A stretch of 64,000 nt of DNA, from contig NC_080171.1 of the NCBI RefSeq assembly GCF_950295315.1, forward strand, positions 94,954,470 to 95,018,469, in the 5' to 3' direction. Source of the stretch: Erinaceus europaeus. Its lineage: Eukaryota > Chordata > Mammalia > Eulipotyphla > Erinaceidae. Shown piece after piece: positions 2,045 to 55,507 of this stretch. The notes beneath the pieces were generated by a model. It was not told where the DNA came from. It did not search any database and saw only the letters and a program-made list of their open reading frames with translations. Each line of letters starts with the position of its first letter. The first letter of the stretch is position 1. A program made the translations under genes and the position numbers.

Positions 2045-2990
<946 letters not shown>

Positions 2991-3770
2991 TAGGCGGTGA
3001 GCAGGTGGCTTCCTTGTTGGCCTGGGAACCTGTAGTTTCTGTCCAATAGCTTTTTCTTTTTACTACGTAAACTCATAGTGACTTTAATATTTAAAACACA
3101 TAAGGAAGCAGTGAGGCAAACACTGACCTTCATTGGGGGGGGAGAAATTCATGTGTATCAGCATCTGAATGTAACAAAAGAGGTTTAGCATCTTGGCAGA
3201 CCTTGCATAGAACCCGGCTTTCCGCCTGCCTGTCCACTGGCATATCACCCCAGAACAGACTCTGGAAGGCCTTTCCTGAGCTAGTTGTCCACAGACACTG
3301 AGGGCCCAGACGTGGCAGCCATAGGAAGAGTTCCGAGTGTCCCTCTACCCACCTCATTCCCCGTGCTTAGGCTCTTCTCATGTCAGGACTGCCTGAGAGG
3401 AAGACAAAGCACTTTGTACATAATCCAGGAGGCACTGAGGCAGCAGCAGCAGTCTGACTTGCTCTTGGCTCTGTGTTTGGTTGGTGCTGCCTCAGCTCAG
3501 GTTCACAGGCTGCCTTGCACCAGGGAGGACCTTCAGCAAAAGCACCCAGCTGACATGGGCTTTAGTGTTTTGGGATGTGACTGAGCCTTCCCCCTCCTGG
3601 TAACAGGAGTGGGCGCAGTACTGCCAAGAGTGAAGGAAGAAGGTGGAGAATTAGAGCCTTCCCAAAGTTAAGTCGGAAACTTTTTTGGAAAGCCCGGCAT
3701 TATATAAGTAGTTCCAGAACTTCCTTTGTATTTCCCCTAACACACTCTTTTTATATATGTATGCACGCAG

Positions 3771-5922: not shown

Positions 5923-6506
5923 TGTTTTTTAGTCAGTGACGTTTTGTGGCTTAACTGGTAAATATTTTCTATAGGAACATGTTTCTTTCTGTCACTAACA
6001 CTTGATGAAATACAGTATACTTGTAACTACCCTTTATGTACAGTTCATATCTCCATTCACATAGTGTAGTTTTAATCATTTATCATGCTATGAAAATATT
6101 ACTCAAAACCTTTTTTAAAAGCAGCACACGGCCTTTTGTAAATAATAGCCCAGTACATTTGCTTATCCAAAGGCTGTCCTTCTCATTTTTCCTACCTCTA
6201 ATTCTGTAGTGGGAATTCTTGCACATAATTATTTAGTCACTGTGTTCAATTTATTTTTTTTTTTTTTTAGCCAAGGCTCCTAGAAGTGAGATTACTGGAT
6301 CAAGAACTAAGAATATTTGTATTCTTTTTGGTACACCGGGTCGCTTTTCCAATTGGGTGTCTGCCAGTTTACAAATAGCATAGTTTAAAAAAATGTAGTG
6401 CTCAGCAGAGAAGCCAGCACCCCCGACTCCAGAATGAAGTTGCTCAGACTTTCCTAGAGAGCCAGTTTCTCTTCTTTGCCTCTTTACATCTGACATTCAA
6501 TTTCAG

Positions 6507-6704
6507 CAAAAAGTGGATGATTGTGAGCGCTGCCGAGAGTTTTTCAACAAAGAAGGGCGTATTAAGAGCATCAGCTCAGCTAAAGACGTTTTAGATGAGG
6601 ACACAGATGAAGAAAAGGAAACACTCAAGAACCAGCTCAGAGAGATGGAACTCGAATTGGCACAAACCAAGCTTCAGTTGGTGGAAGCTGAGTGTAAAAT
6701 ACAG
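6507..6704 (+). CDS. RABGAP1: RABGAP1 coding exon, largest of the visible set
   Basis: A 198-bp phase-0 exon encodes 66 residues, including QKVDDCERCREFFNKEG, then an acidic stretch (DEDTDEEKE) and a second helical run (LREMELELAQTKLQLVEAEC). Acceptor ATTTCAG, donor CAG|GTAACG. The open frame runs on past the donor to 6788, but the intronic part loses the coiled-coil character and is not coding. The C-x2-C pair in DCERC is a local oddity of the family, not an evident zinc site. Confidence 0.95.
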
Positions 6705-6869
6705 GTAACGAACTGCAGCAGAGAGCCTCCTCTCTTCTTGGTGTATAGAGACTTGGAGCCGATTTTCTGGAGTAGACAGAATGTATGACCTTGATTTAGT
6801 TATTTTGCCAAAATTTGGCCATAATTTTGGATTTTGACTATAATACTCAAGTAAAGAAGCCCATTCCTT

Positions 6870-53386: not shown

Positions 53387-53479
53387 TTTTCCTTAAGTTT
53401 CGTTTCATCTTCTTATTAGGATCTTTATCATCCCCTAATCCATCTTCAAATGGCCTTTTCAGAGCCGAGGACCCAGCAC
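53387..53479 (-). CDS. STRBP: STRBP coding exon, basic nuclear localisation segment
   Basis: A 93-bp exon enters with two bases of a split codon ending GT and leaves with one base (A of the Ile codon completed at 52309). It encodes [20 protein letters not shown] and [13 protein letters not shown] plus KKMKR separated by an acidic spacer resembles the bipartite nuclear localisation signal between the DZF and dsRBD regions in ILF3-family proteins. It is the most upstream STRBP exon I can find; the DZF exons must lie beyond 64000. Donor A|GTGTGT is non-ideal but GT. Confidence 0.92.
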
Positions 53480-53823
53480 CTAAATAAGATAAAATACTAA
53501 AGATTCATTATCAGCCAAAACAGTGAGTCCACTTACTCTTATCAAATATATCTAAAATGTTCAGAACAGCAAATTTAGGAATCACCATGACCATACCCAG
53601 CTTTCATAAATTAAATTAGCAAATTAAGAGCCATGTGAAAGCAGAAAATGGTAAGTTTTTAATAACACCCCTTTTAACATATTCCTACTTATGCTTATGT
53701 ATACATGTATCTATGCATACATTCACATATGAATAAACAAAAAGTCTAGAAAAGGTATATATCAAAATGGTTTTTTAAATTTTTTTAAATGTATTTATTT
53801 TCCCTTTTGTTGTCCTTGTTGTT

Positions 53824-53903
53824 TTTCATTGTTGTATTATTACTGTTTTCATTGTGTTTCATTGTTGTATTATTACTGTTTTCATTGTTGTATTATTACT
53901 GTT
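53824..53903 (+). repeat. Short tandem repeat at the 5' junction of the retrotransposon
   Basis: Three copies of a unit starting TTTCATTGTTGTATTATTAC with spacings of about 33 and 23 bases lie between the SINE tail and the element. The unit resembles the SINE sequence ATTGTTGTAGTTATTATTG, so it is an expansion of SINE sequence directly abutting the insertion. Confidence 0.8.
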
Positions 53904-55083
53904 GAAGAATTTAAAGACGGGTGCTGTCTTTGTTGATCTCACAGCAGCCTATGACACGGTCTGGCACCGTGGTCTCCTAGTCAAGATCTCAAGATGCCTG
54001 CCTCCATGGGTGGCCAACACTATATCGTTTCTTCTCCAAAACTTAAGATTCCGGGTGCATCTGGGTGACAAGTCTAGCAGATGGAGACTTGTCTCAAGTG
54101 GCCTCCCCCAGGGCTCTGTTCTGGCTCCTACACTATTTAATATTTACATCAATGACCTCCCAGAAACTTCTTCAAGGAAGTTCATCTACGCCGATGACAT
54201 CTGCTGTGCAACTCAGGCATCCAAGTTCGACATCCTCGAGGAAACACTCACGAAAGACATGTCTCTGATATCTGATTACTGTAAAAAATGGCGACTAATC
54301 CCTAGCACTGCAAAAACGGTATCATCTGTTTTCCATCTACACCATGCCTTGGCCTCACGTGAGCTTAATGTGCAGCTTGGCGATACGAGAATCCGGCATG
54401 AAGCCCAGCCAGTCTATCTTGGCATTACTCTCGATCACACTCTGTCATTTCACAAACATCTCATAAAAACTGCAGCAAAGGTGGGCGCGAGGAATCACAT
54501 CATTGCAAGACTGGCCAGCTCCTCATGGGGCGCGAGCGCTTCCACACTACGATCATCATCTTTGGCATTATGCTATTCCACTGCAGAATACTGTGCCCCA
54601 GTATGGTTCCGTAGCCCCCATGTTCACTTGGTCGATTCCAAATTATATTCCTCCATGAGGATAATTTCTGGAACCATCCGTTCCACCCCGGTTCCATGGC
54701 TGCCAGTTCTTAGCAACATCGCCCCGCCAGATATTCATCGGGATGCAGCATCATCTAAGTTCATTTCCCACGTCTATGCTCGACCGGACCTGCCAATATA
54801 CGCGGATATCTTCACCCACCCTGTTCAATGCTTGACGTCTCGTCACCCAATCTGGTCCCCTACGCCTACACTGAACTTCTCTGTTCCAGTCTCTTGGAAA
54901 CAGAGTTGGCAGTCAGCTGAGGTAAAGAACAAACACCTCATCACAGACCCCTGCAAGCGTCAACCCGGCTTTGACCTAGCACGTTATGATTGGGCTCTCC
55001 TCAATCGCTATCGAACAGGCCATGGCCGGTGCGCCACTATGTTCCATCGCTGGGGAGCCAGAGGGGAGCCAGAGACGACCTGA
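53854..55083 (+). pseudogene. 409-codon reverse-transcriptase open frame, frameshifted near its end
   Basis: The first 17 codons, including the ATG, come from the T-rich SINE/tandem-repeat flank (MFHCCIITVFIVVLLLL, accidentally hydrophobic). Retrotransposon sequence starts at codon 18. Codons 18-about 400 carry RT motifs A, B and YADD, the thumb and the start of the C-terminal region (LNRYRTGHGRCATMFHRWGA). An 11-bp tandem duplication then shifts the frame and ends the protein at 55083; the original frame continues to a stop at 55223 with the Cys/His motif. The lack of endonuclease and 5' region makes it non-autonomous. Confidence 0.8.
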
Positions 55084-55231
55084 ACTGCCCCTGCGGCTCC
55101 AGACAGACTATGACCCACATAGTCAACGACTGCCACCTCTCCAGATTCAAAGGAGGTCTCGAAACTTTACATCAGGCTCAACCTGACGCTGTTGACTGGC
55201 TATGGAAGAAGGGCAAACGCTAGAAGAAGAA
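53904..55231 (+). mobile_element. 5'-truncated non-LTR retrotransposon of non-typical mammalian type
   Basis: The element begins inside the reverse transcriptase palm: FVDLTAAYDTVWHRG (motif A, catalytic Asp), GLPQGSVLAPTLFNIYINDL (motif B region) and FIYADDICC (catalytic YADD), then thumb sequence with YLGITLDHTLSFHKH and LCYSTAEYCAPVW. After a frame break, a C-terminal Cys/His cluster (CPCG to HIVNDC) and a TAG stop follow. The 3' end is a short AGAAGAAGAA tail, not poly(A). It is flanked by ACTGTT at 53898-53903 and 55232-55237 (6-bp TSD) and lies within a family A SINE. The domain order is that of single-endonuclease LINEs of the Jockey/CR1/RTEX group, with closest remembered relatives in invertebrates and fish; the exact clade is not settled. 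Base composition is visibly richer in G+C than its surroundings. Confidence 0.85.
55052..55073 (+). repeat. 11-bp tandem duplication that breaks the RT frame
   Basis: GGGGAGCCAGA occurs twice in direct succession (55052-55062 and 55063-55073). Counting only one copy keeps the frame open into the C-terminal Cys/His region, so this duplication is the only lesion seen in the surviving part. Confidence 0.9.
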
Positions 55232-55507
55232 ACTGTTGTTATTGATGTTGTCATTGTTGTATAGGACAGAGAGAAATGGAGAGAGGAGGGGAAGACAGAG
55301 AGGGGGAGAGAAAGATAAGACACCTGCAGACCTGCTTCACCGCCTGTGAAGCAACTCCCCTACAGGTGGGGAGCCGGGGGCTCAAACCGGGATCCTTTTG
55401 CCTGTCCTTGCGCTTTGCACCACGTGCGCTTAACCCGGTGCACTACTGCCCAACTCCCTATATCAAAATGTTTAAGGCAATTGTCCAGTTATAAGATTCA
55501 CTAAAAA

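Follow-up and report, generated by a model that had tools for sequence, protein, structure and literature searches.

We found that the window (the whole stretch of DNA analysed, 64 kb) carries on its plus strand a 1,328-bp fragment of a non-LTR retrotransposon, which we regard with considerable confidence as a dead, 5'-truncated copy of a Vingi-clade element, from the family reportedly described as Vingi-1_EE/Vingi-1_AAl. The Vingi membership is very probable in view of the context, the domain make-up, the absence of an RNase H match and the literature, and the identity of the insert as Vingi-1_EE is very probable as well. The original prediction of a non-LTR retrotransposon from beyond the usual mammalian set is supported; the insert has an RVT_1 match in its open frame (Pfam, E = 2.5e-17), a target-site duplication (TSD) and a 5' truncation. 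The element is very probably foreign to most mammals, yet a member of an already reported family, so that the find is real and not new: Vingi was reportedly named, from hedgehogs, by Kojima, Kapitonov and Jurka (2011, MBE 28:17-20), and with hedgehog Vingi on record since that year no novelty can be claimed for the element. The features of the locus are collected in Table 1.

Table 1. Features of the insert and of the repeat that it interrupts (positions in the window).
Feature	Positions	Strand	Basis
Host repeat, part of its tail, left flank, with the TSD at its end	53777..53903	-	extent by eye
Target-site duplication, left copy, ACTGTT	53898..53903	.	
5'-truncated non-LTR retrotransposon copy (very probably Vingi-type)	53904..55231	+	RVT_1, P0001, TSD
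Open frame: RT from KNLKTGAVFVDLTAAYDTVW via YADD and the post-RT region, into the frameshift	53905..55080	+	RVT_1; P0001
Stop-to-stop frame; C-terminal CPCG...HIVNDC...KKGKR past the duplication; TAG at 55221-55223	54990..55223	+	
11-bp tandem duplication, GGGGAGCCAGA twice, shifting the frame	55052..55073	+	P0001 protein continues without the extra unit
3' end AGAAGAAGAA, short GAA-repeat tail, no poly(A)	55222..55231	+	
Target-site duplication, right copy, ACTGTT	55232..55237	.	
Host repeat, body, right flank	55238..55461	-	empty-site alignment

The insert begins with GAAGAATTTAAAGACGGG and ends with CGCTAGAAGAAGAA. It is bounded by two copies of ACTGTT, whose identity spans exactly 6 bp, and its 3' end is closed by GAA repeats. 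Since AAGAAGAA lies directly 3' of the TAG stop, the insert is almost without a 3' untranslated region and has a short GAA-repeat tail. Target-primed reverse transcription, the established mechanism of APE-type LINEs, is marked by a TSD, a 5' truncation and a 3' repeat tail. These three and a reverse transcriptase (RT) domain, the four hallmarks of a non-LTR retrotransposon, were all found in the insert. Both the 6-bp TSD ACTGTT and the 3' tail other than poly(A) had been claimed beforehand; the former was borne out at both edges of the insert and the latter by the GAA repeats at its end. A blastn search of the rest of the 64-kb window revealed no second copy of the insert (best E = 0.071, over 24 bp).

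The insert codes for an RT core from KNLKTGAVFVDL on. Its open stretch comprises 392 codons; when the insert was resampled 500 times under a first-order Markov model, the longest stretch was 288 codons and the mean 122. The 409 codons given in the original prediction exceed what is open inside the insert. A single open frame holds FVDLTAAYDTVW, GLPQGSVLAP and YADD together with the thumb motifs LDHTLSFHKH, YSTAEYCAPVW and WLPVLSNI, so that every RT motif pointed out earlier was recovered, in one frame. The RVT_1 model was matched from position 71 on, indicating that the front of the RT and all upstream parts are missing, and the insert retains roughly the 3'-terminal 43% of an ORF that in full-length relatives encodes about 1,000 aa. 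The predicted CPCG/HIVNDC cluster was found, though not in the frame of the RT, and the description of the frame as nearly intact holds for the 392 open codons, but not for an ORF of which only about 43% is left and which is frameshifted. Neither of the two window frames gave an RNase H match at E<=1. Comparison with the PDB yielded eight weak RT matches, the best to an R2 protein (E = 0.0038), and NCBIfam a group II intron RT model that scored 34 bits where the cut-off is 300; neither helped the classification.

The DNA around the insert was examined as a rejoined empty site. Both flanks with one TSD copy read continuously as part of a local interspersed repeat, presumably the tRNA-type SINE of hedgehogs. 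In the rest of the window, 24 places resemble the rejoined site (E<=1e-10), and 10 of them cross the junction contiguously, with 79-88% identity over 240-252 bp; the rejoined flanks align to these 10 copies from about 53877 on. The left flank is simple and repetitive: a 33-bp unit of the repeat tail (53819-53907) has two good tandem copies, 97% alike, and a third match, shifted and 76% alike, the whole array reaching the insertion point. Because ACTGTT occurs more than once in this flank, the 6-bp TSD alone is weak evidence; the empty-site test outweighs it as evidence of insertion, and the join is consistent with the TSD. The insertion into a hedgehog SINE that had been put forward is thus confirmed as far as the interrupted repeat is concerned; the name of the SINE is our presumption, and the hedgehog origin of the window depends on it.

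Two exon-like stretches were also noticed in the window. One, at 53389-53480 on the minus strand and 424 bp from the insert, has a TTTAG acceptor, a reading frame and a donor (all by eye) and resembles STRBP; if it belongs to that gene, the insert would sit antisense in an intron; its product had no match in the PDB or Pfam. The other, at 6438-6788 on the plus strand, is an exon-like ORF, VDDCERCREFFNKEGRIKSISSAKDVLDEDTDEEKETLKNQLREMELELAQTKLQLVEAECKIQ, resembling the coiled coil at the C-terminus of RABGAP1 or RABGAP1L; in Pfam it gave nothing above the cut-off.

Relatives of the element were sought by protein searches with the window frame (the best 120 of 1,752 matches) and with P0001, a protein from a 2,072-bp ENA contig (the best 120 of 2,384 matches, scoring being confined to the 7,983 candidates with the most words in common). 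All four full-length relatives scanned (981-1,003 aa) contain an endonuclease (PF03372/PF14529) and an RT (PF00078); of this protein of about 1,000 aa, the window copy has the part from the RT onward only. RNase H gave no match at E<=0.1 in P0001 (a partial protein) or in these four relatives, and in the precomputed Pfam column it appears for none of the 196 listed proteins, many of them partial. The CxCG...H...C end occurs in P0123, P0125 and P0131, the relatives whose C-termini were compared. DNA of the relatives was found in no viral contig (2 stretches with the P0001 pattern and 27 from alignment A1). The search of genome contigs returned a single contig, L001 (1 of 49 stretches), from a bacterial metagenome-assembled genome (MAG). 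This contig is filed under a Flavobacteriales MAG and codes, at 2649-3725, for an RT relative with 30% identity; it is likely to be a eukaryotic contig that was binned wrongly.

A quick maximum-likelihood tree with SH-aLRT supports and no bootstrap was built from 145 of 197 rows (the window and the listed relatives). Rows were removed if they covered fewer than 330 columns of the window frame or exceeded 85% identity to a retained row, the six organism-named rows and P0004, P0015, P0025 and P0060 being exempt. The window frame pairs with P0001 (SH-aLRT 100) within a set of 6 rows (95), which in turn lies within a clade of 52 rows (99). This clade takes in both named fish (Synaphobranchus and Cirrhinus); the four named arthropods (Nilaparvata, Bradysia, Phlebotomus and Cordylochernes) all fall outside it. 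As the named arthropods are only 46-48% identical and fall outside the clade of the element, an arthropod source is not favoured, and the ticks or mites once suggested as donors find no support here. This evidence is weak: among the 196 relatives listed, no more than 6 are organism-named, so that the fish-side placement argues only weakly against an arthropod donor, and the case is weakened further because Vingi is reported from a locust, where passages of the source describe a narrow divergence range and a recent invasion (PMC3391268). Insect-like Mariner transposons that moved to the hedgehog, described in an excerpt of PMC3517439, also run counter to disfavouring arthropods.

P0001 is the closest of the matches listed, 96-97% identical to the window frame (376 of 390 residues), whereas every other listed relative shows at most 60% identity to the window frame and 63% to P0001. 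Ahead of the duplication, the window and P0001 differ at 11 of 386 residues; past it, there are three further differences (P to L, Y to S and R to W). At four of the 11, P0001 positions 194, 325, 425 and 456, the window is without a well conserved arginine, kept in 180/184, 177/195, 188/193 and 187/188 relatives, respectively. A change of CGN to CAN or TGN fits three of the four losses, by the smallest codon distance, P0001 being known as a protein only. At residues 195 and 406, it is P0001 that deviates and not the window, which argues that P0001 is another copy rather than the ancestor; the remaining five, at positions that are variable or two-state, could not be clearly polarised. The observed/expected CpG ratio is 0.638 in the insert versus 0.177 elsewhere in the window, a contrast to which the G+C content (50% versus 40%) contributes. 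CpG retention is therefore a sign of youth and gives no date. Together with the 97% identity to its sister copy P0001, it supports a young age for the insert. Of the recent arrival proposed originally, the youth of the copy stands, but the youth of a copy does not date the arrival of its family. It is improbable that P0001 comes from a prey animal, a parasite or an aquatic organism rather than a hedgehog, as a near-identical donor or co-recipient; if it did, Vingi would have passed between lineages very recently.

The features described above are consistent with an origin of the insert by target-primed reverse transcription. The autonomous element would encode a single protein of about 1,000 aa that combines an apurinic-like endonuclease and an RT with the C-terminal CxCG...H...C cluster and lacks RNase H. 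Its endonuclease would introduce a nick at the target site, in this case the AT-rich SINE tail, and the RT would then prime on the GAA-repeat 3' end of the element RNA. A halt of synthesis at about 1.3 kb would leave the 3' fragment with its 6-bp TSD. We infer these steps from the anatomy of the locus. The later decay of the copy, by the 11-bp tandem duplication and CpG-type substitutions, is visible in the sequence.

With regard to classification, members of the Vingi clade have a single ORF of about 1,000 codons for a protein with endonuclease and RT. Lack of RNase H distinguishes Vingi from Ingi and I; it is shared with Jockey and CR1. The Ingi clade (trypanosome ingi), said to be its sister, resembles the element as an endonuclease and RT non-LTR element, but differs by an RNase H, for which no match was found in the relatives here. 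Compared by description, Vingi-1_EE/Vingi-1_AAl is a non-LTR element reported from hedgehogs, with young copies on record and, like the relatives scanned, an RT without RNase H; the insert is a young copy in repeat-rich DNA, presumably of a hedgehog, and at this level no difference between the two was found. P0044 (eel), P0104 (carp), P0121, P0123, P0125 and P0131 share the RT and, where full-length, the endonuclease, at 56-61% protein identity. In the literature, Vingi is stated to be carried by hedgehogs and reptiles in a passage of PMC5753468, and excerpts of PMC3183009 report the derivative Vingi-1N3_EE in Erinaceus europaeus with 311 copies under 1% divergence. A 2025 study of the African hedgehog lists 4,476 copies labelled 'I-Jockey', and the word Vingi is absent from its main text, in the portion available (PMC12026660). 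RTE1_Sar of the common shrew is, like hedgehog Vingi, a eulipotyphlan non-LTR element attributed to horizontal transfer, but it belongs to the RTE clade, has a proposed nematode source and was not detected in the hedgehog, according to extracts of PMC6542046. We would guess that the 'I-Jockey' copies of the African hedgehog are the same elements under another label.

Following the literature, we consider horizontal transfer of the hedgehog Vingi family likely. Vertical inheritance since early amniotes, with loss in other mammals, is compatible with the Vingi reading; we hold it to be unlikely, though worth serious consideration. Kojima, Kapitonov and Jurka reportedly regarded vertical transfer as still possible, which favours this explanation. 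It also draws on the X12_LINE repeat, the one Vingi-type repeat mentioned for the human genome in an excerpt of PMC5753468, which reports Vingi in reptiles too, and on one pre-amniote Vingi protein fossil in the human genome (from a passage of PMC9004415). Against it, the hedgehog Vingi is placed among 'older likely horizontal transfers', with families common to several species, in the relevant extract of PMC3183009. The youth of the copy and the roughly 60% identity of the next relatives suit a vertical or a horizontal origin alike.

A further explanation is that the insert is a Jockey, CR1, I/Nimb or similar element, newly transferred from an arthropod and independent of Vingi. The position of the insert beyond the usual mammalian set, the youth of the copy, the arthropod relatives at 46-48% identity and the Mariner transposons noted above as received by the hedgehog lineage would agree with it, and the missing RNase H is compatible with Jockey or CR1. 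Nevertheless, we find this explanation very doubtful, as a foreign Vingi family is already recorded in hedgehogs, the four named arthropods all lie outside the 52-row clade that unites the element with both named fish, and an I-type element would be expected to carry the RNase H that was not found. That foreign DNA was joined to mammalian DNA by an assembly artefact or contamination has next to no probability: the sole near-identical listed protein does lie on a 2-kb contig of unstated source, but the element is bound by the 6-bp TSD and the GAA tail, the empty site is intact at 10 other places, and the copy is 5'-truncated as a retrotransposed copy would be and has decay that is absent from P0001.

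Taken together, the Vingi-clade assignment remains the reading that we prefer, and it would mean that a reading of the raw sequence alone picked out a case of likely horizontal transfer into mammals that has very probably been published already.
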